The notes beneath the pieces were generated by a model, which was not told the origin of the DNA, did no database searches, and was given only the letters and a program-made list of their open reading frames with translations. A program made the translations under genes and the position numbers. DNA of 64,000 nucleotides, taken from Actinomycetota bacterium. GTDB lineage: Bacteria > Actinomycetota > Thermoleophilia > Solirubrobacterales > Solirubrobacteraceae. Positions 8,513 to 63,484 of the stretch are shown here, in pieces. Positions within the stretch are counted from its first letter, which is position 1, and each line of letters begins with the position of its first letter. Location: contig VAWK01000019.1 in assembly GCA_005885515.1 (NCBI GenBank), positions 38,832 to 102,831 on the forward strand, in the 5' to 3' direction.

Positions 8513-8549
8513 GCCGCGGCGCCAGCGCTCCTGCTAGCCTCGTGATCAG

Positions 8550-17277: not shown

Positions 17278-17380
17278 TAGCGGCTCGAGCCGGCCCGCGG
17301 GCTGCGCGGGCGCCGCGCTTCTGCGAGCGCAAAAACGGCCGAGATCGGCTTATCCACGGCCCGTAGCGCATGTCACAAAG

Positions 17381-17409
17381 TTGTTACGAAGTCCGCGATC
17401 AGGTAGACT
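17381..17409 (+). promoter_or_regulatory. Candidate sigma-70 promoter of the atp operon
   Basis: TTGTTA (17381-17386) and TAGACT (17404-17409) are separated by 17 bases, about 90 bases before the first gene of the ATP synthase operon. It is a reasonable vegetative promoter in an otherwise gene-free stretch (17278-17502). A short ACAA-AG-TTGT palindrome overlaps the -35 element. Confidence 0.5.
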
Positions 17410-17502
17410 AGATGCGCCGCCCGAGAGGCGAACAAACCCTCAGTCTTGGTCCGCCGCGGGAGCGCGTGCGGACTTTCGCGTCTATAGGGTGCCGGTATCC
17501 CC

Positions 17503-18914: not shown

Positions 18915-18935
18915 AAAAAGACAAGGAGCTTGACG

Positions 18936-19205: not shown

Positions 19206-19211
19206 GCCCCG

Positions 19212-20305: not shown

Positions 20306-20313
20306 GAGAACAC

Positions 20314-21870
<1,557 letters not shown>

Positions 21871-21888
21871 CGCCGCGCCTGTAGTCCA

Positions 21889-45804: not shown

Positions 45805-46287
45805 ATGGCGAAGGGCAAGCGCAAGCGCAAGGTGGGACCTGGCGATGTGGCATCCAACCGCTACGCCGCCCACCGCTATCAGCTGCTGGACCGGCTGGAG
45901 TGCGGCATCGTGCTGGAGGGCACCGAGGTCAAGGCGCTGCGCTCCTCGGGGGCACAGCTGAAGGACGGCTACGCCGCCATGCGTGACGGCGAGCTGTGGC
46001 TGCACAGCGTGCACATACCGCCGTACGGCCCGGCCGCACGCGAGAACCACGATCCCGAGCGCGCGCGCAAGCTGCTCTTGCACCGCCGCGAGCTGGACCG
46101 CATCGCGGCGCGCGCGCAGGAGCGAGGCCTCACGCTGGTGCCGACGCGCATCTATTTCTCCGGCGCACACGCCAAGGTCGAGATCGCGCTGGCGCGGGGC
46201 AAGGACCTGTACGACAAGCGCCAGTCGCTGCGCGAGCGCGAGACCAGGCGCGATATCGAACGAGCCGTGCGGGAGGCGCGCCGCTGA
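45805..46287 (+). CDS. smpB: SsrA-binding protein SmpB
   Basis: Escorts tmRNA to stalled ribosomes. The 160-residue product shows NRYAAHRYQLLDRLECGIVLEGTEVKALRSSGAQLKDGYAAM, NHDPERARKLLLHRRELDRI and the C-terminal basic tail KRQSLRERETRRDIERAVR, which enters the mRNA channel. The ATG at 45805 gives the typical Lys/Arg-rich N-terminus. It follows the exonuclease gene by 12 bases, and the tmRNA gene is 1.3 kb downstream, so both trans-translation partners are linked. Confidence 0.96.
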   Translation: MAKGKRKRKVGPGDVASNRYAAHRYQLLDRLECGIVLEGTEVKALRSSGAQLKDGYAAMRDGELWLHSVHIPPYGPAARENHDPERARKLLLHRRELDRIAARAQERGLTLVPTRIYFSGAHAKVEIALARGKDLYDKRQSLRERETRRDIERAVREARR

Positions 46288-47559: not shown

Positions 47560-47920
47560 GGGGACGACAGGCTTCGACGCGGTCGGTTCGCGAGGATGGT
47601 GGCGAGTCGAGGTTCCGGGCGGCCTCGTAAAACACCCGGAAAACCATAAGTGCGGACTCTCACGAGTACGCCCTCGCCGTTTAGCAACTAGCTAAATCGT
47701 GAGGTCTCGGCCCCCGCTCGCCTGCGGCTGGGAAGACCGGGATCAGAAAGCAGGCTCACCCGGCGAGGTCCGCCTTCGCCGAACCGGGGAAGTCAAAGAA
47801 GGCTGGTCTCCCGCAACCCGGCCGGCGAGGCGCGCGGGAGATGAGATCAGAGCGCCGGCTACGCTCGTAGAAGCCATCCTCACGCGATCGTGGACGTGGG
47901 TTCGATTCCCACCGTCTCCA
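47560..47920 (+). ncRNA. ssrA: Transfer-messenger RNA
   Basis: Rescues stalled ribosomes by acting first as tRNA-Ala and then as mRNA for a degradation tag. The 5' end GGGGACGACAGGCTTCGACG and 3' end GTGGGTTCGATTCCCACCGTCTCCA pair as an acceptor stem (GGGGACG with CGTCTCC) and a T-arm. The tag frame starts at 47652: GCG GAC TCT CAC GAG TAC GCC CTC GCC GTT TAG, giving ADSHEYALAV, with a second in-frame type stop close by. The terminal CCA is not encoded, because CTTTTTTT follows directly. Length is 361 nt. Confidence 0.96.
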
Positions 47921-47921
47921 C
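47908..47921 (+). repeat. Candidate attachment-site core at the tmRNA 3' end
   Basis: CCCACCGTCTCCAC covers the 3' T-stem and acceptor strand of tmRNA and is repeated exactly at 61929-61942. The 3' end of ssrA is a well-known target for integrases, which leave a copy of the sequence at the far end of the insert. See the findings for the full comparison. Confidence 0.6.
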
Positions 47922-47950
47922 TTTTTTTGCCTGCAAATGGGCAGTTTTTG
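47922..47950 (+). terminator. T-rich stretch after ssrA, possible terminator
   Basis: A run of seven T follows the tmRNA acceptor strand immediately. It is followed by CTGC-AAATGG-GCAG, a weak 4-bp hairpin, then TTTTT. Termination of ssrA transcription here is plausible, though the stem is short. The region to 47965 is strikingly AT-rich for this genome. Confidence 0.4.
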
Positions 47951-48115
47951 GGTTTTTTGTTTTCGGCTTTGAGGGCAGGTACCGCCGAGGCGGAGCCCTT
48001 ACTTTGCCGGACAGGGCATCTCCTTCCACTGATCAAGGCGTCAGCTGAGCGTGTCGGCAGACGATCGGATGCCGCCCCCACCAGGCGCCCCGCGAGCGCG
48101 CATCGAGACGACCGC

Positions 48116-48286
48116 CTAGCGACCAAAGGGGCAGTCGACGCTGACTCCGGCGAGCAGCGCGACCTCCTCACGGCGAAGCCCTGGAACGCGGCGGTTGTCG
48201 CCGTAGATCGGCAGGCCTGCTTGGTCTGGCGTGATCTTGGCTCGCCGGGAGGTCAGGAACTCGCGGATCTCGCTCCTGGTGTCCAC
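48116..48286 (-). pseudogene. Truncated MmyB-like XRE-family regulator
   Basis: A 56-codon frame too short for the ORF track. From the GTG at 48286 it reads TRSEIREFLTSRRAKITPDQ, then RRVPGLRREEVALLAGVSVD, which is the N-terminal helix-turn-helix of MmyB-like regulators. It then breaks into CPFGR and a stop where the family continues with a Tyr-rich segment (YYTRLERG). So the ligand-binding remainder is gone. It is divergent from the aldo/keto reductase, a common pairing for this regulator type. The truncation point lies between ssrA and the reductase, consistent with a damaged island edge. Confidence 0.75.
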
Positions 48287-48421
48287 AGAACTCAGGGTAC
48301 GCCCGCTGGCATGACGCTGGGAGGGTCTGTCAGTACCTGGAGCAACAGGGACTCTCAGTCCGCGCTCAGCTGTGCTTCCTTGTGAGTCCTACCCGAGATC
48401 CGAGAACGGAGGCACATTGCC

Positions 48422-49399
<978 letters not shown>

Positions 49400-49492
49400 T
49401 GTAACCCCTTACCAAGCGAGAGGAGACTTCTGCGAGGCTGCGTCCTGACTCGAACCCGGTGCCCCTTCCGTTTGCCCCGGCGATCCTTTTCC

Positions 49493-50218
49493 TCACGCTC
49501 GCGGCGTCGCGGTCGTCGAGGCGGCGACGTGGTCGAGAAAGCGACGGCAGATTTCGGTTCCCAGCTCGTTCCAACGATCGATTTGGCGGCGGGTCGTGGT
49601 AAGCACCGCAGCCCAATCAACATCGGCGCGGACGGCGTCCTCATCGCTTCGGTAGTCCTCGATCCAGCCTGCGATCGTCTCGTCGGTCACCTCGGCGTGG
49701 AACTGGATCCCCCACCAGGGCGTCGCGCGCAGTCGAAAGGCCTGAAGGTAGGCTGAGCTGCGCGCCAGCGCCACGGCCTCCGGCGGCGCCAGGAGCTCGT
49801 AGCTATGCCACTGGAAGCTCTCAAACCGCGCAGGCAGCGGCCCGAGTAGCGCATCGCCTTGAGCCTCGAGCGTGAGCTCGACGCTGATCCAGCCGATCTC
49901 GGGCGCAGCGGCTCGTTTAGCGCCACCGCCCGCAACCTCCGCCAGCAGCTGAGCCCCGAGGCAGACGCCTAGCGCAGGCGTTCTGCAAGCTAGCAACTCT
50001 CCCAACAGCTCCTTCTCGCCGCGCAGCCACTCATGCTCGCGCTCTTCGTCGACGTTCATCGCGCCGCCAAACACGAGCACGGCGCCGAACGAGTCCGACG
50101 CCGGCACCGCTGTCTCCGCGGGTATCCACTCGACGACCTCGTCGCCTCGCGCGGCTGCCACGAGGTCGAACACGCCACTTCCTGCCGCGCGTTCGTGGAC
50201 GATCGACAGCACGCGCAT
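49493..50218 (-). CDS. Class I glutamine amidotransferase domain protein
   Basis: Glutaminase-like fold protein of 241 residues. The nucleophile elbow is PALGVCLGAQLLAEVAGG, and the His-Glu pair is in GIQFHAEVTDETI, so the Cys-His-Glu triad is complete. It resembles GMP synthase-type amidotransferase domains and stand-alone homologues that cleave gamma-glutamyl amides. The ATG at 50218 starts the conserved domain (MRVLSIVHERAAGSGVF); the ORF track adds 39 residues upstream without support. Position next to a glutamine synthetase-like ligase gene set suggests, but does not prove, gamma-glutamyl amide hydrolysis (PuuD-like role). Confidence 0.85.
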   Translation of the reverse strand: MRVLSIVHERAAGSGVFDLVAAARGDEVVEWIPAETAVPASDSFGAVLVFGGAMNVDEEREHEWLRGEKELLGELLACRTPALGVCLGAQLLAEVAGGGAKRAAAPEIGWISVELTLEAQGDALLGPLPARFESFQWHSYELLAPPEAVALARSSAYLQAFRLRATPWWGIQFHAEVTDETIAGWIEDYRSDEDAVRADVDWAAVLTTTRRQIDRWNELGTEICRRFLDHVAASTTATPRA

Positions 50219-50295
50219 GGCGTCAGTGTCACAGATCAGCTCCGCCCCGCCGAGCTGCTCCCGCACGGCGCGTGCTCGGTGTACGGTTGGACGCG

Positions 50296-51726
50296 ATGAA
50301 CGTCCTGGCGATCGATCAGGGCACCTCCTCGACAAAGGCGCTCGTCGTCGCCACCGGCGGCGAGGTGTTGAGCGAGAGCAGCGCTGCCGTCACGCCACGC
50401 AGCGCAGCCGGGGGAGCCGTCGAGCAGGATCCGGAGGAGCTCTTCCAGTCGATCGTCACGGCCGGCCGGGCCGCACTCGCGTCCGTCGATGGGGCGGTCG
50501 AGGCGGTCGGCGTGGCCAACCAGGGTGAGACGGTGCTGCGCTGGGATCTCCAGAACGGCCGGCCGTTCGGGCCGGCGCTGAGCTGGCAGGACCGCAGAGC
50601 CGTGTCGGTGACGCGCGAGCTGGGCGACCACGCCGAGCGCTTGACCGAGCTCACCGGACTTCCGCTCGATCCCTACTTCGCTGCGCCGAAGATGACGTGG
50701 CTCGCGCGCGAGGGCGGCGAGGAGGGGGTCATCACCACGGTCGACGCGTGGTTGAACTGGCGCCTCGCCGGAGCGTTCGTCACCGACGCCGCAACCGCGT
50801 CGCGCACGCTGCTGATGGATCTCGCGGGCACGACATGGTCGGCGGAGGCGTGCGCGCTGTTCGGCATCGACCCGGGCGCTCAGCCGCAGATCGTCGATTG
50901 CGACGCTGCGGTCGGCGAGACCGGCGCTTTTGGAAAGCCGCTGCCCGTGACCGGCCTAGCGGTCGACCAGCAGGCAGCGCTGTTCGCGGAGTCCTGCTTT
51001 GAGGCGGGCCAGGCCAAGTGCACATACGGGACCGGCGCGTTCATCCTCGCCAACGCCGGCGAGCGCGTCGCCCGGTCGCGCTCGCGGCTGGCCGCCTGCG
51101 TCGCCTGGCGGCTTAAGGGCGCGACGACATACTGTCTCGACGGCCAGGCGTACAGCGCCGGATCGGCCGTGTCGTGGCTGCGGGAGCTCGAGCTGATCGA
51201 CGAGGCCGCCGACCTGGACCGCAGCGGCGGTGAGGACGAGGAGGTGGTTTTCGTCCCCTCGCTCGCCGGGCTTGGAGCGCCGTTCTGGGCGCCCGAGGCG
51301 CGCGGCGCCTGGCTCGGACTCTCGCTGGCGACGCACCGCGAGGATCTCGTTCGCGCGGTCGTGTCGGGCATCGCCGCACAGGTCGCCACGCTTGCTCGCG
51401 CGATGGGAGAAGACGCGAGCCGTCCGCTCGAGCGCCTGCGCGTCGATGGCGGCCTCACGAGGTCGTCCACGTTGATGCAGGCGCAGGCCGACCTCCTTCA
51501 GGTGCCCGTCGAGCTCTACCCGTCGGCCGACGCCACCGCGCTCGGGGTGGGAGCGCTCGCGCGGCTGGGCGCCGGCGGCGCGAACACGCCGGTCGAGGCC
51601 GTCGGGAGCTGGGCACCGGCCGCCGTGTTTGAGCCGCGGATGTCATCCGCGGAGGCCGAGGATCGCCTTGCCCGCTGGCAGGCGGCCGCGCTCGCGCTGG
51701 CCGAACTCTCGCGCGCACAGCGATGA
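50296..51726 (+). CDS. Glycerol kinase-like FGGY family kinase
   Basis: Phosphorylates glycerol or a related polyol with ATP. The 476-residue product carries IDQGTSSTKALVV, LSWQDRRAVSVTRELG, LTGLPLDPYFAAPKMTWL (very close to GlpK), TYGTGAFILANAG and FVPSLAGLGAPFWAPEARGAWLGL, plus the ATP-binding LRVDGGLTRSSTLMQ. Those segments match glycerol kinase more than xylulo- or gluconokinases. ATG at 50296 is preferred to the track start at 50272. Its stop overlaps the next gene by 4 bases (ATGA), so kinase and dehydrogenase are coupled, fitting glycerol to dihydroxyacetone phosphate. Confidence 0.88.
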   Translation: MNVLAIDQGTSSTKALVVATGGEVLSESSAAVTPRSAAGGAVEQDPEELFQSIVTAGRAALASVDGAVEAVGVANQGETVLRWDLQNGRPFGPALSWQDRRAVSVTRELGDHAERLTELTGLPLDPYFAAPKMTWLAREGGEEGVITTVDAWLNWRLAGAFVTDAATASRTLLMDLAGTTWSAEACALFGIDPGAQPQIVDCDAAVGETGAFGKPLPVTGLAVDQQAALFAESCFEAGQAKCTYGTGAFILANAGERVARSRSRLAACVAWRLKGATTYCLDGQAYSAGSAVSWLRELELIDEAADLDRSGGEDEEVVFVPSLAGLGAPFWAPEARGAWLGLSLATHREDLVRAVVSGIAAQVATLARAMGEDASRPLERLRVDGGLTRSSTLMQAQADLLQVPVELYPSADATALGVGALARLGAGGANTPVEAVGSWAPAAVFEPRMSSAEAEDRLARWQAAALALAELSRAQR

Positions 51727-53123
51727 GCGCGGCGCGACCGGAACGCGATGTCGTCATCGTGGGCGCGGGCGTCGTCGGCGCCGCGATCGCGCGCGAGCTT
51801 TCCCGCTTCGAGCTGCGCTGCACGATCGTCGAGCGCGCCCCCGACGTGGGAGCAGGGACGAGCAAGGCCAACACGGCCCTGCTGCACACCGGCTTCGATG
51901 CCAAGCCCGGGACGATCGAGGCTCGGCTAGTCCGTCGCGGTCACGAGCTGCTGAGCGCCTACGCCCATCGGGCCGGGATACCCCTGGAGCGCATCGGGGC
52001 TCTGCTCGTCGCGTGGAACGAGGAGCAGCTCGGCGCGTTCGCACGGATTGTCGAGCGCGCACGCGCAAACGGGTACACGGCGATACGCGAGATTGGGGCC
52101 GACGAGCTTTACAGGCGCGAGCCGCACCTCGGGCCGGGCGCCGGCGGGGCCCTCGAGGTACCTGACGAGGGCATCGTGTGTCCGTTCACGACGCCGCTCG
52201 CCTTCGCTACGGAGGCCGTCCTCGCTGGGTGTGAGCTGCGGCTGGGGGAGGAGGTCACGCACGTCGAGCGGAGTGGTGACGGTGGCACGTGCGTGCACAC
52301 GAGCAAGGCGACGCTCACGACCCGCTTCCTCGTCAACGCCGGCGGCCTGCACAGCGACGAGCTCGATCGCATGCTCGGCCACGACCGCTTCACCGTGACT
52401 CCTCGCCGCGGCGAGCTGATCGTGTTCGACAAGCTCGCGCGACCGCTGCTCGATCACATCCTGCTGGCGGTGCCGAGCGCGACCACGAAGGGTGTCCTGC
52501 TCGCGCCCACCGTCTTCGGCAATCTGCTCCTCGGTCCGACGGCCGAGGACATCGAGAACAAGCACGACACGTCCTCGACCCGCGAGGGCCTCTCCTACCT
52601 CCGAGCACAGGGAGAGCGCATCTTGCCCGGGCTGTCCGACCACGAGGTGACCGCCGTCTACGCGGGTCTGCGCGCCGCGACCGAGCACGCCGACTACCAG
52701 ATCACGATTCACGCCGCTGAGGGTTATGCGTGCGTGGGCGGGATCCGATCGACGGGACTGTCGGCCTCCATGGCGATCGCCGAGCACGTGCGCCTCGAGC
52801 TCGCCGATGCGGGGCTGCAACTCGCCCCCAAGCCGCATCCGCCGAGCGTGCGCATGACGAACCTCGGCGAGGATTTCCCGCGCCCTTACACACAGCCCGA
52901 GCGGATCGCCGAGAACCCCGACTACGGCCGGATCGTCTGCTTCTGCGAGCGTGTCACACGCGGTGAGATCACCGACGCGCTGTCTGCGCCCATCCCGCCG
53001 GTCGACCTCGACGGCCTGCGACGCCGCACGCGCGCGCTGATGGGCCGCTGCCAGGGCTTCTTCTGCGGCGCCGAGGTTGCGGCGCTGCTCGACGGGAGGC
53101 CCGACGCGGGTGTCAGCGTCTGA
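51723..53123 (+). CDS. FAD-dependent glycerol-3-phosphate dehydrogenase-like oxidoreductase with C-terminal [2Fe-2S]-type domain
   Basis: Flavoprotein of 466 residues. The FAD Rossmann motif VVIVGAGVVGAAIARELSRFELRCTIVER begins at residue 10. TSKANTALLHTGFDAKPGT is the DAO/GlpA-type substrate loop. The C-terminal 65 residues hold a BFD-like cluster domain with CFCERVTRGEI and GRCQGFFCGAEVAALL (four cysteines). This is the GlpA architecture, which in E. coli works with GlpB and GlpC. Here the gene after it encodes another FAD protein. Coupling to glycerol kinase supports a glycerol-3-phosphate role. Confidence 0.82.
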   Translation: MSAARPERDVVIVGAGVVGAAIARELSRFELRCTIVERAPDVGAGTSKANTALLHTGFDAKPGTIEARLVRRGHELLSAYAHRAGIPLERIGALLVAWNEEQLGAFARIVERARANGYTAIREIGADELYRREPHLGPGAGGALEVPDEGIVCPFTTPLAFATEAVLAGCELRLGEEVTHVERSGDGGTCVHTSKATLTTRFLVNAGGLHSDELDRMLGHDRFTVTPRRGELIVFDKLARPLLDHILLAVPSATTKGVLLAPTVFGNLLLGPTAEDIENKHDTSSTREGLSYLRAQGERILPGLSDHEVTAVYAGLRAATEHADYQITIHAAEGYACVGGIRSTGLSASMAIAEHVRLELADAGLQLAPKPHPPSVRMTNLGEDFPRPYTQPERIAENPDYGRIVCFCERVTRGEITDALSAPIPPVDLDGLRRRTRALMGRCQGFFCGAEVAALLDGRPDAGVSV

Positions 53124-54366
53124 CGCCCCGGTCGTCGTCGTCGGGGGCGGTCCGGCGGGCCTTGCATGCGCGATCGAGTTGCGCCGCCGCGGCGTGGCCG
53201 ATGTGGTGGTGCTCGAGCGCGAGCAGCAGGCGGGTGGAATCCCTCGCCACTCAAACCATCAAGGCTTCGGCGTGCGCGACGTGCACCGCCTCATGTCGGG
53301 CCCGCGTTACGCCAGCCGCTACGTCGCGCACGCACGCCGGTCGGGAGCGCGCGTTGAGCAGGAGACGATGGTCACGGGCTGGTCCGGGGTCGGTCATCTC
53401 GAGCTGACGAGGCCAGCCGGGCGCTACATGCTCGCACCCGCCGCCATCGTGCTGGCGACCGGCTGCCGGGAGCGCCCGCGCGCGGCCCGCCTCGTGGCCG
53501 GATCGCGACCCGCCGGCGTCATGACCACGGGGACGGTGCAGCAGCTGGTGGCGTTTCGCGGGCAGCGTTTCGACGGACGGGCGCTGATCGTCGGCGCCGA
53601 GCACGTGAGCTTCTCTGCGCTCATGACACTGACGCACGCCGGCGCGAACGTCGTCGGGATGGTCACCGAGCTGCCGTGCCATCAGTCGCTTGCCGTCGTG
53701 CGCGCCGCCACGCGGCTCCGTTACGGCATCCCGCTGTGGACGCGGAGCACCGTGACCGCGATCCACGGCTACCCGCGCGTCGAGGAGGTCACGCTCGAGG
53801 ATCTCGACTCGGGCCGCTCGCGCAGAGTGGGCTGCGAGACGGTGGTCTTCACCGCAGACTGGATACCCGACCACGAGCTGGCGGTGCTTGGAGGGATAGA
53901 GCTGGATCCGGGCACGCGCGGGACCCGCGTGGACACGGCTTTGCGGACGAAGCGCCCCGGCGTGTTCGCCGCCGGCAACGTGCTCCACGGAGCCGAGCCC
54001 GCTGACGTCGCCGCGCTCAGCGGTCGTCACGCGGGCGCGTCGGTGGCGCGCTGGTTGTCCGCCCATGGCGTCTGGCCGTCGGCGGTCCCGATCGCGTGCC
54101 GGCCCCCCCTGCACTGGATCTCACCCAACGCCGTCGGGTCCGCCGCAGAGGCGCCGCCGCGAGGTCGCTTCGCGTTGCGCTCGCGCGCATTTCTGCGCGG
54201 TCCCGAGATCGAGATCAACCAGGATAAGCGCTGCCTCTGGCGCGGCACGGTGAGGAGACTCGGACCCGGCCGCTCAGCCAGTTTGCCCGCCGGTTGGGTC
54301 GCCTCCGTGGACGCAGACGGCGGCTCGATCGACGTCGCGCTGGCACACCCAGGCGGGCGCGCTTGA
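53110..54366 (+). CDS. FAD/NAD-dependent oxidoreductase (GlpA-partner type)
   Basis: A 418-residue flavoprotein starting with a GTG at 53110, whose first codons overlap the previous gene by 14 bases. Motifs are VVVVGGGPAGLACAIELRRRG (FAD), IVLATGCRERPRAARLVAGSRPAGVMTTGTVQQLV, and a terminal GVFAAGNVLHGAEPADVAALSGRHAGASVARWL that closes the FAD site. It resembles NAD(P)/FAD oxidoreductases encoded after GlpA-like genes (HcnB/octopine oxidase subunit-like). It probably passes electrons from the dehydrogenase to a membrane acceptor. No transmembrane segment is present. Confidence 0.78.
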   Translation: MSASDAPVVVVGGGPAGLACAIELRRRGVADVVVLEREQQAGGIPRHSNHQGFGVRDVHRLMSGPRYASRYVAHARRSGARVEQETMVTGWSGVGHLELTRPAGRYMLAPAAIVLATGCRERPRAARLVAGSRPAGVMTTGTVQQLVAFRGQRFDGRALIVGAEHVSFSALMTLTHAGANVVGMVTELPCHQSLAVVRAATRLRYGIPLWTRSTVTAIHGYPRVEEVTLEDLDSGRSRRVGCETVVFTADWIPDHELAVLGGIELDPGTRGTRVDTALRTKRPGVFAAGNVLHGAEPADVAALSGRHAGASVARWLSAHGVWPSAVPIACRPPLHWISPNAVGSAAEAPPRGRFALRSRAFLRGPEIEINQDKRCLWRGTVRRLGPGRSASLPAGWVASVDADGGSIDVALAHPGGRA

Positions 54367-54407
54367 CTGTCAGTCGGCCTCGGAGGTACGCTCAATTACA
54401 CAAATTG
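54363..54407 (+). promoter_or_regulatory. Promoter and AT-rich operator candidate before the APC permease
   Basis: TTGACT at 54363 and TACGCT 18 bases later fit a sigma-70 promoter. Immediately after lies the perfect palindrome CAATT-ACACA-AATTG (54393-54407), unusually AT-rich for this genome. It would overlap the start of transcription, a typical repressor position. The regulator is not obvious in the window. Confidence 0.5.
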
Positions 54408-54449
54408 TGGAGCAAATGGGGAGGCTCGCAAGCGACACCGGGAGGCGCA

Positions 54450-56102
54450 ATGGCACAGGTCAAACCGCAAATCGGTCACGACGAGCAACGTCTCGCAGAG
54501 CTGGGCTACAAGCAGGAGCTAACCCGCGCGTGGAGCAGCTTCACGAACTTTGCGATCTCGTTCACGATCATCTCGGTCCTGGCCGGGTGCTTCACGAACT
54601 TCTCGTTCGCGTGGACGGCCGGCGGGCCGATCGGCATCTCGATCGGATGGCCCGTGCTCTGTCTGTTCGTGCTGCTGGTCGCAGTGTCGATGGCCGAGCT
54701 GACCTCGGCGATGCCGACCGCCGGCGGTCCCTACTGGTGGGCGGCCAAGCTGGGCGGCAAGGGCTGGAGCTGGATCACGGGCTGGTTCAACATTGTCGGC
54801 CTGGTGGGCATCGTCGCGGGCGTCGGCTACGGAGCGGCGCAGTTCCTGCACGCTTTGCTCAGCATCTACGGGCTGAAGATCTTCGGCGAGCACTTCGCCG
54901 ACACGAACCCCTCGCACGTCCTCCACCAAACCTTCGTTCTGTACCTGATCATCCTGATCGGCTACACGCTCGTGAACATCTTCGCCGACCGCCTGCTGGC
55001 GATCTTCAACAACGTCTCCGTCGGCTGGCATGTGCTGGGCGTGCTCGCGATCATCCTCCTGCTGGCGCTCGTGCCCTCCCACCACCAGGATGCGGGCTTC
55101 GTGTTCGGCCAGCGCTTCAACAACACCGGCTTTCACGGCGGCCACACAACCGGACTGTTCTTCTGGCTGTACCTGCTGCCGATCGGCTTCATCCTGACCA
55201 TGTACACCCAGACCGGATACGACGCCTCTGCCCACACCTCCGAGGAGACGCGCGGCGCCGCGCTCAGCGCGGCCAAGGGCGTGTGGCGGTCGGTGTTCTA
55301 CTCGGCGATCGCTGGCTGGGCGGTGCTGCTCGCCCTCGTGTTCGCCGCCACCAACGTACCCGCGATCACCGAAAAAGGCGGCGGCTCGATCCCGGTCATC
55401 GAAACGGCCTTGACCTCGGCAGCGGCTAAGGCGGTGCTGCTCATCTGCACGGTCGGGCAGCTGTTCTGCGGCGCGGCGGGCTTGACCAGCGCGTCGCGCA
55501 CCTGGTTTGCCTTCTCGCGAGACCGCGGGATGCCCGGCTGGCCGCTCTTCCGACGCCTGAACCAGCAGCGCGTGCCGCTTTACGCCGTGATTGCCGTGTC
55601 GATCGCCGCGTTGATTATCACGATCCCGGCGTACTTCGGCAACAAGGTCGGCTTCCCCTGGGCGTACTTCGCGATCACCGCGATCTGCACCGTGGGCCTG
55701 TATCTCGCATACATCATCCCCGTGTTCCTGCGCCTGCGCATGGGCAACCGCTTCCAGCCCGGGCCGTGGACGTTGGGACGCCATTACAAATGGATAAACG
55801 TGGGCGCCATCGCGTTCGTCGTGCTGGTCGTCTATGCGCTCGATATCCCGACCGTGCCCGCGGGCGTGCCGTGGAAAGGCAACTTCAAATTCGAATCGTT
55901 CAACTACGCGCCGCTGGTGCTGGTCATCGGACTGCTCGTGGGGATCTGGTGGTGGCTCGACGCCAAGAACAGGTACACCGGTCCAGTGCGCACGATCGAC
56001 ACGGACGAGCTCGGGCATGTGCTCACGGAGGAGCCTGCATCTCCCGCGCCGCCGCCGGCCCCGCCACCGCCGGTCGAGCCGCCGCCAACGCCTGCGAGTT
56101 AG
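54450..56102 (+). CDS. APC family amino acid/amine permease
   Basis: A 550-residue transporter with about 12-13 helices. The start at 54450 follows GGGAGGCGCA; the ORF-track start at 54294 lies inside the previous gene's frame and was rejected. Family features are ELTRAWSSFTNFAISFTIISVLAG (first helix unwinding motif), SMAELTSAMPTAGGPYWWAAKLGGKGWSWITGWFNIVG, TGYDASAHTSEETRGAALSAAKGVW, and RTWFAFSRDRGMPGWPLFRRLN. This resembles GABA/amine permeases of the BAT1/UGA4 group. A Pro-rich C-terminal tail is cytoplasmic. It sits beside a glutamine synthetase-like ligase, so an amine substrate is likely. Confidence 0.88.
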   Translation: MAQVKPQIGHDEQRLAELGYKQELTRAWSSFTNFAISFTIISVLAGCFTNFSFAWTAGGPIGISIGWPVLCLFVLLVAVSMAELTSAMPTAGGPYWWAAKLGGKGWSWITGWFNIVGLVGIVAGVGYGAAQFLHALLSIYGLKIFGEHFADTNPSHVLHQTFVLYLIILIGYTLVNIFADRLLAIFNNVSVGWHVLGVLAIILLLALVPSHHQDAGFVFGQRFNNTGFHGGHTTGLFFWLYLLPIGFILTMYTQTGYDASAHTSEETRGAALSAAKGVWRSVFYSAIAGWAVLLALVFAATNVPAITEKGGGSIPVIETALTSAAAKAVLLICTVGQLFCGAAGLTSASRTWFAFSRDRGMPGWPLFRRLNQQRVPLYAVIAVSIAALIITIPAYFGNKVGFPWAYFAITAICTVGLYLAYIIPVFLRLRMGNRFQPGPWTLGRHYKWINVGAIAFVVLVVYALDIPTVPAGVPWKGNFKFESFNYAPLVLVIGLLVGIWWWLDAKNRYTGPVRTIDTDELGHVLTEEPASPAPPPAPPPPVEPPPTPAS

Positions 56103-56114
56103 CGAGCGCGGAGC

Positions 56115-57530
56115 TCAGCCGCGCTCGAACATGCGCACGCGCTCGTAGTCGGTGACGACTTCGTCGAACAGGCGTTGCTCAGTGCGGCCGTAGTTGAGGT
56201 AGTGGCGCCACACCTCCTCGCCGAACGTGCGCTTGGCGAAGTCGCTGGCCTCCCAGCCGTCGACGGCCTCGCGCAGCGATGACGGGAACGGCTCAGCCTC
56301 GCCCGCGGCGTACGCGTTGCCGACCAGCTCCGGGCCGGGCTCGATCGCATTCTGGATGCCGTCGATGCCCGCCGCGAGCAGCGCGGCGAACCCGAGGTAG
56401 GGATTCACATCCGCCCCGGGAATCCGGCACTCCATCCGGCGCGACTGCCCGTGACCGACGATGCGAAAACCGCACGTGCGGTTGTCGCGTCCCCACGAGA
56501 TCGAGGTCGGTGCCCAGCTCTCGGTCGCGTAGCGCTTGTAGGAGTTGACGCTCGGCGCGACGAACAGCGCGAGCTCGCGTACGTGCTTGCGCAGGCCACC
56601 CAGGTAGTGGCGAAACACGTCGGTCTCCTCGTCGCCGTCGACGAAGGCGCTCTTCGCCGAATCGCGATCGACGAGGCTCATGTGAATATGGCAGGAGCTG
56701 CCGATGTCCTTCTCCGACGGCTTGGCCATGAAGCTGGCCGAGATGCCGTTGAGGTTGGCGATCTCCTTGACGCCGTTCTTATAGATCGTGTGGCGGTCCG
56801 CCGCCGTGACGGCGTCGGCGTAGCGAACGTTGAGCTCGTGCTGCCCGTACCAGGCCTCGCCCTTGGAGAACTCGACCGGGATCCCAGCGCCCTGCATGCC
56901 GCGTCGCAGCTGCTGGATGAACGGCTCGTCCATCGTGGTCGCGAGCACGTGGTAGTCGAGGATGTAGGGGATCGTGGGAGTTAGGTCGCGATACCCCTTG
57001 CTCCACGCCTCCGCGTAGCTCTCCTTGTAGAGGTAGAACTCGAGCTCGGAGCTCATCATCGGCGTATACCCCAGCTCGTTAGCGCGCTCGTACTGCGCAA
57101 TCAGGACCTGCCGCGGCGACTCGACCACCGGACCGCCATCGTGTGAGACGACGTCGCACAGTACGAGCGCCGTCGAGTCGAGCCAGGGGATCCGCCGCAG
57201 CGTCGAGATGTCGGGAGCGATCCCGAAATCGCCGTAACCCTTCTCCCAGTTGGCCATCTGATAGCCCGGCACCGGATCCATCTCCATGTCGAGCGCGAGC
57301 AGGTAGTTGCAGCCCTCGACGCCGTGGGACGACACCTCTTCCAGGAAGTACTCGCCCTGGATGCGCTTGCCCATCAGCCGTCCCTGCATGTCGGTGAAGG
57401 CGGCCACGATCGTGTCGATCGTTCCCTCCCTGATCTCCCGCTCGAGCTCCTTGAGCGTCAGCATCCCCCGCAGCTCGCCGGGTCCCCCCGGACGGCTGGC
57501 GCGCTCCCCGCTCCTCGCCTCGATCGCCAT
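56115..57530 (-). CDS. Glutamine synthetase family protein (gamma-glutamyl-amine ligase-like)
   Basis: ATP-dependent ligase of 471 residues. Motifs include SSELEFYLYKESYAEAW (metal Glu), FSKGEAWYGQHELNVRYADAVTAADRH, IGSSCHIHMSLVDRD (ATP/substrate) and the arginine set RIVGHGQSRRMECRIPGADVNPYLGFAALLAAG. It lacks the adenylylation loop of GlnA type I and matches the PuuA/GlnT-like catabolic group. Such enzymes add glutamate to polyamines, ethanolamine or other amines. The neighbours (APC permease, aldehyde dehydrogenase, class I amidotransferase) form a plausible gamma-glutamylation route. ATG at 57530; an internal Met at 57464 (MLTLKELEREI) is an alternative. Confidence 0.87.
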   Translation of the reverse strand: MAIEARSGERASRPGGPGELRGMLTLKELEREIREGTIDTIVAAFTDMQGRLMGKRIQGEYFLEEVSSHGVEGCNYLLALDMEMDPVPGYQMANWEKGYGDFGIAPDISTLRRIPWLDSTALVLCDVVSHDGGPVVESPRQVLIAQYERANELGYTPMMSSELEFYLYKESYAEAWSKGYRDLTPTIPYILDYHVLATTMDEPFIQQLRRGMQGAGIPVEFSKGEAWYGQHELNVRYADAVTAADRHTIYKNGVKEIANLNGISASFMAKPSEKDIGSSCHIHMSLVDRDSAKSAFVDGDEETDVFRHYLGGLRKHVRELALFVAPSVNSYKRYATESWAPTSISWGRDNRTCGFRIVGHGQSRRMECRIPGADVNPYLGFAALLAAGIDGIQNAIEPGPELVGNAYAAGEAEPFPSSLREAVDGWEASDFAKRTFGEEVWRHYLNYGRTEQRLFDEVVTDYERVRMFERG

Positions 57531-57585
57531 TAGGTGATTAATACTCCCTAGCCGACGACCGCGCTACCGCAATAGCATCCCGGCA

Positions 57586-58941
57586 ATGATCACCGTGCGC
57601 GAGCCCGCTACCGAGACGGTGCTCACCGAGATCCCGGCGGCCGATCGGTCGCTGCTGGACGCCGCGGTCGCGCGCGCGAGGGAGAGCGCCCCGGCGTGGC
57701 GTGCGCTGACGCCGCGCGCCCGCGCGCGAGCGCTGAGCGACCTCGCCGCCGCGCTCGAGCAGCATGTCGAGGAGCTCGCGCTGCTTGAGGCGCGCAACGC
57801 GGGCAAGCCGATCGCGGACGCGCGTGGCGAGATGGAGATGGTCATCGACGCGTTCCGCTACTACTCTGGCGCGCCGGAGCGACCGCTCGGCGAGACGATT
57901 CCGGTGGCGGGCGGGCAGGCCTTCACGGTTCGTGAGCCGCTCGGCGTTGTCGGCCTGATCACGCCCTGGAACTTCCCGCTCTTGATCGCCTCATGGAAGC
58001 TTGCCCCCGCGCTCGCCGCCGGCAACGCCGTCGTGCTCAAGCCCGCGGTGCTGACGCCGATGACGGCGCTGCGTTTCGAGCAGCTGGCGAGCGAGGCGGG
58101 CATACCCGAGGGCGTCGTCAACGTCGTGGTCGGCGCCGGCAGCACGGTCGGCCAGCGCTTGGTCGAGCATCCCGACGTAGCCAAGATCGCGTTCACCGGA
58201 TCCACGGAGGTCGGTCGCCAGATCGCGGCCGCCGCCGCGCCGACGATCAAGCGGGTGACGCTCGAGCTCGGCGGCAAGTCGCCGAACATCGTCTTCGCCG
58301 ATGCCGACCTGCAGAAGGCCGCCGCGGCCGCCCCGGCGGCTGTCTTTGGCAACGCCGGACAGGACTGCTGCGCGCGCTCGCGCATCCTCGTCCAGCGCGA
58401 GGCGATCGATGAGTTCATGCAGGAGCTCGAGCAGGTAGTGCGCTCGATCCGGGTGGGCGATCCGCTCGATCACAGCACGCAGATGGGACCGCTGATCTCG
58501 GCCGGGCAGCGCGAGGCGGTCTCCTCGTTCCTCAACGGCGAGGCGCCGATCGCGATCCGCGGCAGCGCGCCGGAGGGGCCCGGCTACTGGTTCCCCCCGA
58601 CCGTGCTCGCGCCAGTTGACCCGCATGCGCGCGCCGCGCGCGAGGAGATCTTTGGGCCGATCGCGGTGGTGATCCCGTTCACCGATGAGGCCGATGCGAT
58701 CCGGATCGCGAACGACACGATCTACGGGCTGTCGGGCTCGATCTGGACGCGCGACGGCGCGAAGGCGCTACGGGTCGCGCACGCGTTGGAATGCGGAGTC
58801 CTGTCAATCAACTCGAACACCTCGGTGCGCGTGGCCACGCCGTTCGGCGGCTTCAAGCAGTCGGGCTACGGCCGCGAGCTCGGCCCGCACGCACTCGACG
58901 CCTACACCGAGGTCAAGTCGATCTTCTTCGCCACCTCGTGA
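57586..58941 (+). CDS. NAD(P)-dependent aldehyde dehydrogenase
   Basis: Oxidises an aldehyde to the acid. The 451-residue product has PWNFPLLIASWKLAPALAAGN, the nucleotide loop FTGSTEVGRQIAAAA, the catalytic Glu in LELGGKSPNIVFADAD and the catalytic Cys in FGNAGQDCCARSRILVQ (second of a Cys pair). PFGGFKQSGYGRELG closes the fold. It is divergent from the glutamine synthetase-like gene with 55 bases between, and its stop overlaps the SDR start (GTGA). In polyamine or amine degradation it would oxidise the gamma-glutamyl aminoaldehyde. Confidence 0.93.
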   Translation: MITVREPATETVLTEIPAADRSLLDAAVARARESAPAWRALTPRARARALSDLAAALEQHVEELALLEARNAGKPIADARGEMEMVIDAFRYYSGAPERPLGETIPVAGGQAFTVREPLGVVGLITPWNFPLLIASWKLAPALAAGNAVVLKPAVLTPMTALRFEQLASEAGIPEGVVNVVVGAGSTVGQRLVEHPDVAKIAFTGSTEVGRQIAAAAAPTIKRVTLELGGKSPNIVFADADLQKAAAAAPAAVFGNAGQDCCARSRILVQREAIDEFMQELEQVVRSIRVGDPLDHSTQMGPLISAGQREAVSSFLNGEAPIAIRGSAPEGPGYWFPPTVLAPVDPHARAAREEIFGPIAVVIPFTDEADAIRIANDTIYGLSGSIWTRDGAKALRVAHALECGVLSINSNTSVRVATPFGGFKQSGYGRELGPHALDAYTEVKSIFFATS

Positions 58942-59678
58942 GGCTCCAGGGCAAGGTCTGCGTCATCACGGGCGCCGCCGGCGGAATCGGCGCGGCGACC
59001 GCCGCGCTCTTCCAGCGCGAGGGCGCCAAGGTGGTGGGCGCCGACGTCGCCGAGAACGCTCCTGGCGATCTCTCGCTGCAGGTCGACGTCACGCAGGAGG
59101 GCCAGGTCGCGGACATGTACGGGCGCGCGCGCGAGACGTTCGGACGCATTGACGTGCTCTTCAACAACGCAGGCATCGCGCCGAGCGACGACGCTTCCGC
59201 GCTCGAGACCACCGCCGATGCTTGGCAGCACGTGCAGGACGTGAACCTCAAGGGCGTGTTCCTGTGCTGCAAGCACGGCATCCCGCATCTGCTCGAGGGC
59301 GGCGGCGGCTCGGTGATCAACACGGCCTCGTTCGTCGCCGTGATGGGCGCGGCGACATCGCAGATCTCCTACACCGCCTCCAAGGGAGGCGTGCTCGCGC
59401 TCTCGCGCGAGCTGGGCATAGAGTTCGCACACCGTGGCGTGCGCGTCAACGCCCTGTGCCCGGGTCCGGTCGACACGCCCTTGCTGCGCGAGCTGTTCGC
59501 CAAGGACCCTGAGCAGGCCGCGCGCAGGCTTGTGCACGTGCCGATGGGACGCTTCGCGCGCGCGGAGGAGATCGCGCACGGCGCGCTGTTCCTCGCCAGC
59601 GACGAGGCAAGCTACGTCACCGCCTCCACCTTCCTGATCGACGGCGGCATCAGCGGCGCGTACGTGACGCCCGTGTGA
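58938..59678 (+). CDS. Short-chain dehydrogenase/reductase
   Basis: Classical SDR of 246 residues. Motifs are VCVITGAAGGIGAATAALF (cofactor), NNAGIAP, catalytic Ser in INTASFVAVMG, and YTASKGGVLAL (Tyr-Lys). The end FLIDGGISGAYVTP matches the 3-oxoacyl reductase-like group. The GTG start at 58938 overlaps the aldehyde dehydrogenase stop, so they are translated together. The ORF-track frame from 58791 lies in the previous gene. Its substrate is unknown; a hydroxy or keto intermediate of the same route is likely. Confidence 0.9.
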   Translation: MRLQGKVCVITGAAGGIGAATAALFQREGAKVVGADVAENAPGDLSLQVDVTQEGQVADMYGRARETFGRIDVLFNNAGIAPSDDASALETTADAWQHVQDVNLKGVFLCCKHGIPHLLEGGGGSVINTASFVAVMGAATSQISYTASKGGVLALSRELGIEFAHRGVRVNALCPGPVDTPLLRELFAKDPEQAARRLVHVPMGRFARAEEIAHGALFLASDEASYVTASTFLIDGGISGAYVTPV

Positions 59679-59755
59679 CGGGAGCGCGTTAGCCGCTCTG
59701 ATGTGCGAACGGAGCAGGGGCGCCGCGTGTACCACCGCCGACATACGCTCTGCTC

Positions 59756-60361
59756 ATGACCGATCGGCACGCGATCGCGCTGCGTCGGGCCGCCGGGCTC
59801 ACGGCCGCGACCGTGGTGTGGAACCTCAGCGTGGGCATCACCGCCGTCACGACGGCGGTGGCGACGGGCAGCCTTGCTCTGATCGGTTTCGGGGTCAACG
59901 CCGTCGTCGATTCGTCCGTGTCCTCGCTGCTCGTGTGGCGATTCCGGGCTGCGGCCTCGGGACGCTCCGAGCACGCGGAGGCGGTCGAGCGCCTGGCAGT
60001 GCGCGTCGCGGGTGCCGCATTCACGATCATCGCCGTCTATCTGTCGGTGCAGGGGGCGCGGGCACTGCTGGCGGGCAAGCGGGCAGATACGTCTGTGTTT
60101 GGGATCGCGGAGGGGGTGGCAGCGCTGGCCGTGCTGCCGTATCTAGCCGTCGCGAAGTACCGACTCGCCCGCCAGCTGCACAGCCGCGCGCTACACGCCG
60201 ACAGCCTTCTGACCGCCTCGGGCATTGCGCTGGCGATCGTTGCTCTCGCGAGCCTTCTGGTGCAGCGCGCAACCGGATGGCGCTCGGCCGACCCCGTCGG
60301 AGCGCTGCTCATCGCTGCGGCTCTTGCCTGGCAGGCGTCCCGCTCTCTGTGCGGGCGCTAG
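59756..60361 (+). CDS. Cation-diffusion-facilitator-like membrane protein
   Basis: A 201-residue protein with about six helices. GSLALIGFGVNAVVDSSVSSLLVWRF and HADSLLTASGIALAIVALAS resemble CDF transporters (helices 2 and 5, whose Asp/His residues bind metal). It is shorter than most family members and lacks the cytoplasmic C-terminal domain, so transport activity is uncertain and it may belong to the TMEM163-like group. The ATG at 59756 follows a 77-base gap from the SDR gene. Confidence 0.72.
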   Translation: MTDRHAIALRRAAGLTAATVVWNLSVGITAVTTAVATGSLALIGFGVNAVVDSSVSSLLVWRFRAAASGRSEHAEAVERLAVRVAGAAFTIIAVYLSVQGARALLAGKRADTSVFGIAEGVAALAVLPYLAVAKYRLARQLHSRALHADSLLTASGIALAIVALASLLVQRATGWRSADPVGALLIAAALAWQASRSLCGR

Positions 60362-60394
60362 TGGATTTGCCAGCGGCAGGCCGCTTGCGTGGCC

Positions 60395-61738
60395 TCAGGC
60401 AACGGCGGCGAACAGACGCCATGTACCAGGCACGCCCTTGAGCACATGTTCGCCTCTATCGGCGAATTCGATACGCGAGCCGGCAACTAGGTCCTTCACC
60501 GTCGAGGACACGAGCACCTCGTTGGCTTCCGCCTGCTGGGCGACCCGGCTTCCGATGTGCACGGCGATCCCGCCCACGTCGTCGCCTCGGCGCTCTAGCT
60601 CGCCCGTATGTACACCGGCGCGCACGCGGATTCCCAGCCGTCGTGCACCATCGCTGATCGCCATAGCGCAGCGAATCCCCCGCGCCGGACCGTCGAATGT
60701 TGCGAGGACGCCGTCCCCGGTGCTCTTCACTTCGTTTCCAGAGAACCGCTCGAGCTGCCTCCTCACCATCTCGTCGTGGGCGTCCAGGAGCTCGCGCCAG
60801 CTTCTGTCGCCGATATCGCTGGCCTGCTCGGTGGACGCGACGATGTCCGTGAACAGCACCGTGGCCAGCACACGATCGTCGTCGCGCTCGCTGCGCGAAC
60901 CGGTCAGGAACTCCTCGATCTGGCCGACCACCTCGTCGGCGTTCTGCTCCCAGGGATAGTGATCGGTGCCCGGTAGCTCGACCAGCGTCGCGCCGGGGAT
61001 GTGGGCCGCCGTGTAGCGACCGTAGTTGACGTTGATCCACCGCTCGTCAGACCTCTGCAGCACCAGCGTCGGCACGCGCACCGTGGGCAGCACCGGGCGG
61101 ATGTCGATCTCGGTGTTGACCTCGAGCAGGGCCACGGCCGCGCCGGGACTGGCGGCCGAGCGCCAGTAGTGCGCATACCATCCCCGGGCGCTCTCATCGC
61201 CAGCGAGACTGGGCGTGCAGAACTCCACGCCGCTGCCATCGGGAGTCCCCCAGCTGTTCTCCATCGCCTCGCGAAGCAGATCCCAGAACTCCGCCGTCCA
61301 GGCCCACGGACACTCCTCGTCGGCCAGCCCGATCACGAACGGGGCAAACAGCACCATCGCCGCCGTGCGCTCCGGATAGGTGGCGGCGAACATGATCGCG
61401 GAGCAGGCCCCCTCCGAGGTTCCGAACACGGCGGCACGCTCCGAGCCGACCGCGTCCAGCACGGCCTGCATGTCGTCCATCCGATCGTCCATCGTCGGCA
61501 CGCCAGCGACTGGATCGGACAAGCCCGTCCCGCGCTTGTCGAACAGGATCAGCCGGCAGAACGATGCAAGATGCTCGTAGAAACGCACGATCGCCGGCCT
61601 GCTCCAGGAGAACTCGATGTGCGAGCACCAGGAGTTGGCGAAGATTAGATCGAACGGGCCCGATCCCACCACCTGGTAAGCGATGTGAACCCCGTCGGGC
61701 GCCTTGGCGTAGCGCGTCTCGGGCATGACCGCCGGCAT
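60395..61738 (-). CDS. Alpha/beta-hydrolase fused to a class III adenylate/guanylate cyclase domain
   Basis: Two-domain protein of 447 residues. Residues about 1-275 are an alpha/beta hydrolase with nucleophile VFGTSEGACSAIM (GxSxG) and a late His in PGTDHYPWEQNADEV. Residues about 285-447 are a cyclase catalytic domain: TVLFTDIVASTEQASDIG with the metal Asp, GNEVKSTGDGVLATFDGPARGI and VRAGVHTGELERRGDDVGGIAVH. The combination is common in actinobacteria; it may be a signalling protein whose hydrolase part senses or processes a lipid or ester. ATG at 61738 or 61726. Confidence 0.88.
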   Translation of the reverse strand: MPAVMPETRYAKAPDGVHIAYQVVGSGPFDLIFANSWCSHIEFSWSRPAIVRFYEHLASFCRLILFDKRGTGLSDPVAGVPTMDDRMDDMQAVLDAVGSERAAVFGTSEGACSAIMFAATYPERTAAMVLFAPFVIGLADEECPWAWTAEFWDLLREAMENSWGTPDGSGVEFCTPSLAGDESARGWYAHYWRSAASPGAAVALLEVNTEIDIRPVLPTVRVPTLVLQRSDERWINVNYGRYTAAHIPGATLVELPGTDHYPWEQNADEVVGQIEEFLTGSRSERDDDRVLATVLFTDIVASTEQASDIGDRSWRELLDAHDEMVRRQLERFSGNEVKSTGDGVLATFDGPARGIRCAMAISDGARRLGIRVRAGVHTGELERRGDDVGGIAVHIGSRVAQQAEANEVLVSSTVKDLVAGSRIEFADRGEHVLKGVPGTWRLFAAVA

Positions 61739-61914
61739 GCGACGAGTATCCTCGGCGCGCGCCCCAAGGACAAGCTTGCTCGTCGCACCGAACCGGAAGC
61801 AAACGGACGTCGCCGCGTCACTCGCTCACTGGGACAACCTTCGCAAGACGGTCGCAGCATCGCCGGGCCGAGGGGCCGTGATCGGCTCTGCGACGCCGTT
61901 TTCGACGTGTGGTG

Positions 61915-61941
61915 TCGCACCAGTCGAACCCACCGTCTCCA
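61915..61941 (+). repeat. att-like repeat, copy A (resembles the tmRNA 3' end)
   Basis: TCGCACC-A-GTCGAACCC-A-C-C-GTCTCCA. The right half shares 14 consecutive bases (61929-61942) with the end of ssrA. The whole 27-bp element matches copy B at 63300 at 24 positions. It lies in a 209-base gap between the hydrolase-cyclase fusion and the redox gene at 61948. Confidence 0.6.
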
Positions 61942-61947
61942 CTACGA

Positions 61948-62436
61948 TCAGGATCCGACTCGGCGCAAGCCGAGCATCGGCAGGTTTCGCACCACCGCCT
62001 CCACGGGTTCGCCCTCGAGTCGGTTCAGGCGGGCAAGCCTTCGGGCGATCACGCGGCTGTAGATCGGGTGGGCGTCGCGGAAGGCCTCTGCCCTGGCGCG
62101 TCCCTCGGCCTCGTCCAGCTCGCGCCACGCGACCGGCCGCTTCTCGCCTCGGACGTGAATCTCCACGAGTCCGCCAGCAATCACGTTTTTGTACCAGTCG
62201 GAGTCTCTGCTCCACATCGGTGAAACGAAGATCTCCCCCCGGTCGGGATCCTCGGCCAGTATCGAGAGCGGCGTCTTATACAGCCTGCCGCTCTTGCGCC
62301 CGCGATTGACGAGGATGAGCACCGTCGGTGGCGGTGAGAGCACCGGAATCAACCAGCGGGTGCCATTGCGATCAAGGGCGCCCGTCATCCGCAGGGCGCG
62401 GCCAAAGACTCGCGCCATGCGCGACTTGCCACTCAC
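61948..62436 (-). CDS. Nitroreductase family deazaflavin-dependent oxidoreductase (second copy)
   Basis: A 162-residue protein of the F420-dependent Ddn-like family: LSPPPTVLILVNRGRKSGRLYKTPLSILAEDPD contains the RGRKSG cofactor loop, followed by FVSPMWSRDSDWYKNVIAGG with the W..N segment. It is related to but distinct from the protein at 24769. The ATG at 62436 begins with basic residues. It lies 6 bases from att-like repeat A and next to the DUF899 gene on the same strand; the pair forms a compact redox cassette. Confidence 0.82.
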   Translation of the reverse strand: MSGKSRMARVFGRALRMTGALDRNGTRWLIPVLSPPPTVLILVNRGRKSGRLYKTPLSILAEDPDRGEIFVSPMWSRDSDWYKNVIAGGLVEIHVRGEKRPVAWRELDEAEGRARAEAFRDAHPIYSRVIARRLARLNRLEGEPVEAVVRNLPMLGLRRVGS

Positions 62437-62445
62437 GCCGCGCGA

Positions 62446-63183
62446 TCAGCTCGGGTATTCGTCTTTGCGCCAGGCGCGGGGCTCGTCGGGCTCAGCCTTG
62501 GGCGTTCGCTGAAGCAGAAACGAGTGGTATGGCGCGACGAACGGATCGGGTGCCATCACCGTGTAGGTGTGGTACACACGTCCGTTCTCGCGCGCGAAGG
62601 CGATGAAGCTCGGGCCCTCGCGCAGCCCGTCCTCGAGCTTGGCTCCGACCTGTCGCCCCCAGTCCTCGAGCCACTCGGGGGGGTTGTCGATCATGTTCTT
62701 GACCTCGGGGATCTCCTGCGCCTGCTCGGGCGTGAGCGCGAGCCCGAAGTCGAACGGAAACTCCGTCCCATACGTCGAGACGTACGGGAACTGCCAACCC
62801 ATCCGCTGCTTGTAGGCGACGAGCCGATCGATCGGCGCGCGCGAGAAGCAGATGAGCGTCACGTCGCGATGGTTCAGATGCACGCGCGTGGCGTCGAGCT
62901 CATCCCCCAGGTTCGAACAGCCGGGGCAGGCGCCGAGCTCGTAATCGGGCCCGAACATGATGTTGTAGGCGAGCAGGTGCGAGCGCCCGTCGAAGAGCTC
63001 GGCGAGCGTCTTCTTCCCTTCCTCGGTGTCGAACTGGTACTCCTTCTCAACTGAAACCCAGGGGAGCTGACGGCGCTTCTCGGTCACCTTCCGGCCGAGC
63101 TTCGCGTGCTCGGCCTCGAGCTTCGCAAGTGCGTCCCGAGCCGCCTGCCATTGCTCGCGGGATCCAACCTTGTGGTCGGGCAT
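62446..63183 (-). CDS. DUF899 family thioredoxin-like protein
   Basis: A 245-residue thioredoxin-fold protein of unknown function. The N-terminal helical part (QWQAARDALAKLEAEHAKLGRKVTEKRRQLPWV) is the family hallmark, followed by KTLAELFDGRSHLLAYNIMFGPDYELGACPGCSNLGDEL with a CxxC pair (CPGC), RVHLNHRDVTLICFSRAPIDRL and NGRVYHTYTVMAPDPF. The ATG at 63183 has a strong AAAGGAG site upstream on the minus strand; the longer ORF-track frame to 63513 is not supported. A role in redox or thiol chemistry is inferred from the fold. Confidence 0.88.
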   Translation of the reverse strand: MPDHKVGSREQWQAARDALAKLEAEHAKLGRKVTEKRRQLPWVSVEKEYQFDTEEGKKTLAELFDGRSHLLAYNIMFGPDYELGACPGCSNLGDELDATRVHLNHRDVTLICFSRAPIDRLVAYKQRMGWQFPYVSTYGTEFPFDFGLALTPEQAQEIPEVKNMIDNPPEWLEDWGRQVGAKLEDGLREGPSFIAFARENGRVYHTYTVMAPDPFVAPYHSFLLQRTPKAEPDEPRAWRKDEYPS

Positions 63184-63299
63184 GTTGACTCCTTTGGCCG
63201 TTCGTCGTGTCGGCGTCGGCGGCAGTGGCGTGTCGTCGGTGGCCGCCTGCCGGCGCCCGTACGTTAGGACCGGTACGCCACGGCGGACTAATCGCCGCG

Positions 63300-63326
63300 T
63301 CGCACCTGTCGAACCCTCGGTCTCCA
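63300..63326 (+). repeat. att-like repeat, copy B
   Basis: TCGCACC-T-GTCGAACCC-T-C-G-GTCTCCA, matching copy A at 24 of 27 positions in the same orientation, 1,385 bp away. It lies in the 301-base gap between DUF899 and the methyltransferase, which otherwise shows no gene. Similarity to the tmRNA end is weaker than for copy A. Confidence 0.6.
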
Positions 63327-63484
63327 TATTTTGGCGGCGGGCGCTGTTGGCGGCCGGCGTGGGTAGCTTCAAGGCGGAGCATCCCGGTCTATCCACGTCC
63401 ATGCCGGGGTGGGGTCGTCCCGGGCGAGGCGTCCGCTGGGGTCGCGCCGACGCCTCCTTACGCGGTGCGCCATCATCGCCTGCG

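Follow-up and report, generated by a model that had tools for sequence, protein, structure and literature searches.

Does the 3' end of the tmRNA gene ssrA bound a genomic island in this Solirubrobacteraceae genome, and where would such an island end? The window, by which we mean the whole 64,000-nucleotide stretch of DNA that was analyzed, is the final 64 kb of contig C50, base 64000 being the contig end, and it belongs to a fragmented draft assembly (G000) of 2.69 Mb in 79 contigs that is 92% complete. An earlier note, made from the letters of the window, had pointed to a repeat of the ssrA end some 14 kb downstream and had proposed a single island between the two copies.

The repeated ssrA end and the longer motif that contains it

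The last 14 nt of ssrA, CCCACCGTCTCCAC, occur exactly at 47908-47921 and 61929-61942, both on the + strand, and the repeat reported in the earlier note is thus real and on the same strand. The identity between the two places really extends to 15 nt, as the next T also matches, and TCGA is common to both, 1-2 bases upstream. The whole 2.69-Mb assembly holds three exact copies of the 14-mer, the third of which (C39:21784) lies within a DNA-ligase-like coding sequence and looks like a product of chance. Taken by itself, the 14-mer is weak evidence, because sharing of this kind is frequent by chance; of 400 40-mers drawn at random from the window, 18 have at least 14 consecutive nt in common with the next 16 kb, and the final 40 nt of ssrA share a 14-mer with upstream DNA too.

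The ssrA 14-mer gains weight because it is part of a longer motif of 27-29 nt, TTTCGCACCnGTCGAACCCaCCGTCTCCA. The distal copy at 61929-61942 is preceded by GTCGCACCAGTCGAA, which is foreign to ssrA, and a second copy of the motif in the window lies at 63299-63327. These two sites, relics 1 and 2 in Table 1, are imperfect copies of the motif, and the flank right of relic 1 matches no other site. A shorter motif-like stretch, TTTCGCACCACCGCCTCCAC, is found at 61983-62004, ~60 bp right of relic 1.

We scanned 61 genomes with a 27-nt pattern at up to 3 mismatches, the reversed pattern serving as a control. There were 9 matches in the 61 genomes, 8 of them within the genus (24 genomes, this one included); with the reversed pattern there were 2, each of them in G026, and 0 in the 24 genus genomes. 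Within 393 kb lying 3' of ssrA in 16 genomes, 6 motif matches were on the ssrA strand and 0 on the opposite strand, while 203 kb of other loci used as a control had none; permuted motifs gave a mean of 0.01 matches. On the ssrA strand and 3' of the gene, the motif lies at +3.35 kb in G002, +5.3 kb in G003, +2.6 and +7.4 kb in G020, and +0.6 kb in G021, and further copies occur on contigs unjoined to ssrA in G018, G011, and G007, with one in another genus (G026). The ends of contigs C64 and C68 of the present genome lack it. Among all GTDB representative genomes searched, a set that may omit records of the window's own genome, the exact degenerate form of the motif matched four records, all Solirubrobacterales. 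The motif-carrying relatives that were identified are Solirubrobacteraceae or Solirubrobacterales MAGs.

The significance of the repeat comes from these counts for the longer motif and not from the bare 14-mer. The idea that the 14-mer is coincidental and the gene order right of ssrA merely variable draws on how often 14-mers are shared within 16 kb of this GC-rich sequence, as in the random trials above, and we consider it the least probable of the explanations weighed here, since the longer motif, its strand bias, its clustering around ssrA, and its occurrence next to an integrase (see below) all speak against it.

Gene order around ssrA in congeners

From 28.0 to 47.9 kb, the window is collinear with six congeners (G002, G009, G013, G014, G018, and G020) up to the final base of ssrA. 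The conserved left flank comprises RNB exonuclease, SmpB, and M50 peptidase genes followed by ssrA, and it is found beside ssrA in nearly all relatives examined, whose genes were called by a simple ORF plus GC3 procedure. The tmRNA tag peptide (47652-47684) ends in ALAV here (ADSHEYALAV) and in ALAA in nearly all congeners examined; this is the part read by the tag protease.

Right of ssrA, gene order is not shared: there is no collinearity with any relative, bar a regulator-aldo/keto reductase (AKR) pair in G020. Homology to this pair starts at window position 48133, at 84% identical DNA, and in G020 the pair is intact and comes right after one of that genome's own motif copies. The right flank typical of the genus consists of an acyl-CoA dehydrogenase gene and then mce genes, and it begins +7.0 kb from ssrA in G019, +8.9 kb in G008, +10.6 kb in G013, +15.3 kb in G009, and +22.2 kb in G002. 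In the present genome, this flank is on another contig (C64:124358-125581), and C64 ends 5.2 kb past it, in a monooxygenase gene that is also part of the flank in G009 and G002. As the native right flank is on C64, the variable region starts at ssrA and runs beyond the window end. Position 61942, proposed earlier as the right edge, is therefore an internal relic, for the native flank is not reached within the window and a second site follows at relic 2. The proposed 14-kb island is only part of a composite variable region.

In G016, G017, and G022 (L047, L048, and L053), the ssrA contig stops ~10-115 bp from the ssrA 3' end, as expected if the site varies among strains in the sampled population.

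Content of the region right of ssrA

Table 1. Coordinates of ssrA, its flanks, the att-like sites, and the genes to the contig end
Feature	Coordinates	Strand	Remarks
smpB	45805..46287	+	Left flank member; Pfam SmpB 4e-54
ssrA (tmRNA)	47560..47921	+	3' end a probable integration target (attB); ARAGORN; Rfam RF00023, 169 bits; synteny in six congeners stops at final base
Type-1 terminator-like flank, TTTTTTTGCCTGCAAATGGGCAGTTTTTG	47922..47950	+	Directly 3' of ssrA here and in G014
Truncated MmyB-type HTH regulator	48133..48286	-	First ~51 of 289 aa; intact homologue adjoins AKR gene in G020
Aldo/keto reductase	48422..49399	+	Pfam; tblastn: 89.5% identical protein in ssrA-distal region of G020
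Class-I glutamine amidotransferase-like protein	49493..50218	-	
FGGY kinase, glycerol-kinase-like	50296..51726	+	Under NCBIfam cutoff
FAD oxidoreductase with BFD-like 2Fe-2S domain, glycerol-3-phosphate oxidase-like	51723..53123	+	
Pyridine nucleotide-disulphide oxidoreductase	53077..54366	+	Start codon uncertain
APC-family amino acid permease	54438..56102	+	Belongs to APC-GS-ALDH-SDR cluster
Glutamine-synthetase-like ligase (gamma-glutamylputrescine synthetase-like)	56115..57530	-	
Aldehyde dehydrogenase (aminobutyraldehyde dehydrogenase-like)	57586..58941	+	
SDR oxidoreductase	58938..59678	+	
Weak CDF-transporter-like membrane protein	59756..60361	+	2e-7, under cutoff
Alpha/beta hydrolase fused to adenylate/guanylate cyclase domain	60395..61738	-	Sits where an integrase is expected, beside distal site
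Distal att-like relic 1	61914..61943	+	GTCGCACCAGTCGAACCCACCGTCTCCACT; arm TCGCACC plus ssrA core
F420H2-quinone-reductase-like gene and DUF899 gene	61948..63183	-	Between the two relics; DUF899 relatives elsewhere in congeners
Distal att-like relic 2, degenerate	63299..63327	+	GTCGCACCTGTCGAACCCTCGGTCTCCAT; arm plus core again
CMAS-type methyltransferase gene start	63480..64000	+	Cut by contig end

The gene set suggests catabolism of polyamines or amines together with glycerol, a prediction from family matches that are mostly under equivalog cutoffs. The regulator at the start of the segment is indeed truncated, as had been noted earlier (Table 1). CMAS-type genes are found at other loci in congeners, and the DNA past relic 2 is therefore still not the native right flank of ssrA. 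The last stretch, from 63631 to the contig end at 64000, is 94% identical to C68:1-370 of the same genome, which is probably due to strain variation or to a duplicate of the gene where the assembly breaks.

The view that the cargo is foreign is not supported. The cluster of APC permease, glutamine-synthetase-like (GS), aldehyde dehydrogenase (ALDH), and SDR genes is found elsewhere on the chromosome throughout the genus and order, as at G009:C1:426-431 kb, 353 kb from the ssrA of that genome; the present genome has no close copy besides that in the window. We also looked for a deviation in composition across the segment, as the earlier note had envisaged, and found none: its GC content is within the range of the rest, and the tetranucleotide distances of its 4-kb windows, at 0.175-0.230, compare with 0.117-0.258 on the left and 0.174-0.221 on C64. 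Left of ssrA, there is a stretch of lower GC at 17000-22000 (about 0.65-0.68, versus 0.71-0.74 around it), and a ZMP/ZTP riboswitch (RF01750, 55 bits) is found at 8546-8628 on the + strand.

A large share of the cargo is typical of the genus, so chromosomal rearrangement could account for part of the region. Carried to its end, this explanation would make all of 47.9-64 kb native DNA relocated by translocation or by inversion, for which scattered att relics may have served as endpoints, with no inserted element; it would account for a genus-wide cluster that is single-copy here, for DUF899 and CMAS genes that belong to the genus at other loci, and for a composition that is not foreign. We nonetheless think it unlikely, as the native right flank is intact on C64 and conserved in relatives, and as five congeners have variable DNA between two conserved flanks, which indicates insertion and not flank swapping. 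In addition, the HTH-AKR pair common to the window and G020 adjoins att-like copies in both.

Integrase, terminator, and att arms

A candidate integrase is found beside the motif in a congener. On G018:C80, the motif lies 28 bp past the stop codon of an intact 375-aa tyrosine integrase (Pfam PF00589, 1.3e-13). In G007, a C-terminal fragment of the same family precedes a weaker motif copy by ~600 bp, and G011 has an integrase fragment a few hundred bp downstream of ssrA, at the contig end. A small gene upstream of the G018 integrase was considered as an excisionase and set aside, as it matches no family reliably and lacks a homologue in the loci compared. In agreement with the earlier note, no integrase gene or convincing remnant was found within 47.9-64 kb (tblastn best E 0.59), and the window has no excisionase or clean P' arm.

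Excision needs at least two core copies in direct orientation, and the window has both, as an intact integrative element would if an integrase gene elsewhere in the genome mobilized it in trans. The earlier note had offered mobilization in trans as one possibility, and an integrase beside the motif does occur in G018. In the window's own assembly, however, the closest protein to that integrase is 29% identical (E 2e-10), as would be the case for any tyrosine recombinase, and no close relative was found; there is also no P' arm at ssrA, and the relic arm is imperfect. Mobilization in trans thus seems very improbable, only a little less so than a chance repeat.

Right of the G018 motif stands the terminator TTTTTGCCTGCAAATAGGCA, which in the window and G014 comes immediately after ssrA; G011 has a version of this terminator after the motif, right of the distal att site. 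Because the flank at 47922..47950 is also present right of the distal att in G018 and G011, we read it as the unoccupied side of the site (B'). The motif-terminator junction of G018 and the terminator directly after ssrA in the window and G014 would then be the filled and empty forms of one site; the ssrA and integrase contigs of G018 are unjoined, so the filled form is pieced together from two separate contigs. Paired TGCGAA repeats in the ssrA flank of G018, G003, G020, and G016 are the reverse complement of the distal-arm TTCGCA, as expected for a P' arm. Under this scheme, attL would be ssrA-core-P' and attR would be P-core-B', and the window and G014 would have core-B' directly after ssrA. 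Since ssrA is followed here by a terminator without an attP-type arm, the left boundary of the segment is not a clean attL of the known integrase family. No wholly empty site, with both flanks and no interval, was seen among the relatives examined, in which the content between the conserved flanks differs.

A probable recurrent integration site at ssrA

Given the motif, the G018 integrase, the conserved left flank, and a right flank that resumes only after 7-22 kb, the ssrA 3' end appears to be an attB hotspot in the genus, with the distal copy being att-like, and in this respect the earlier note was borne out. The reading that we favor, at a probability of roughly three in four, is that a tyrosine integrase has repeatedly used the ssrA 3' end as its attB in this Solirubrobacteraceae genus and that the window holds a decayed, composite remnant devoid of int. 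Elements would insert at the ssrA 3' end by recombining in the core CCCACCGTCTCCAC, which would keep the tmRNA gene intact and leave a copy of its 3' end at the far end, beside int and preceded by the element's arm TTTCGCACCnGTCGAA. Repeated insertion, loss of int, and deletion may then have turned the stretch from ssrA to the native acyl-CoA dehydrogenase-mce locus into a variable composite, of which the window would represent the ssrA-proximal part: an int-less segment (47922-61943) up to relic 1, a 1.4-kb segment up to relic 2, and then more non-native DNA. The sites in the window were probably made by recombination of this integrase family, with int since lost and the region presumably now immobile.

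It is also conceivable, if doubtful, that entire catabolic clusters are shuffled within the genus through a common site, the ssrA hotspot. Segments with the TTTCGCACC-ssrA motif at their end, mostly lacking an integrase of their own, would in that case be gained, lost, and reordered in tandem, and native clusters, such as the polyamine-type one, would pass from chromosomal loci to the ssrA array and back.

The favored reading, a repeatedly used attB, places a tmRNA-gene hotspot with its att motif and candidate integrase in the Solirubrobacteraceae, a little-studied group of soil actinobacteria, and it may explain the contig ends that several congeners have at ssrA or close to it. It also carries a caution, namely that a direct repeat of ssrA in a single genome does not mark the edge of an island.

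Comparison with known systems

Islands at the tmRNA gene are already a well-known kind of hotspot, and what is new here is its occurrence in this group. Among Islander-type islands, tmRNA is the most enriched target (PMC4383910). The present locus resembles these islands in having an intact tDNA and, similarly oriented, a displaced fragment of its 3' end, and it departs from them in that the interval has no integrase gene, the motif-linked integrase being present only in the congeners G018 (intact) and G007 (fragment). It also resembles CIMEs and the tandem accretion of ICEs and IMEs (PMC5704250), in which integration and transfer genes are lost, site copies are kept, and decay and further insertion take place at one site. 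The window segment is likewise without integration and transfer genes; CIMEs have attL and attR, whereas here distal sites of the P-core type are present and the ssrA side is without a P' arm, and a functional attL, an ICE or IME origin, and mobility in cis would each be hypothetical here.

The closest described case is that of the tandem ssrA islands of Dehalococcoides, which are bounded by ssrA and 20-bp direct repeats of its 3' end (McMurdie et al. 2011, PMC3146451); 15 of these islands are without an integration module and have been proposed to be CIME-like (PMC3146451). In Dehalococcoides, a serine recombinase (DsiB) is located beside the ssrA-side end, whereas here the one linked intact integrase belongs to the tyrosine recombinases and adjoins the distal site (G018), and the distal copies here bear a conserved arm, unlike those of the Dehalococcoides islands. 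The two systems are alike in their tandem arrangement, in their disturbed synteny, in the diversity of their catabolic cargo, in that many segments have no integration module, and in having a conserved region past the last repeat (PMC3146451).
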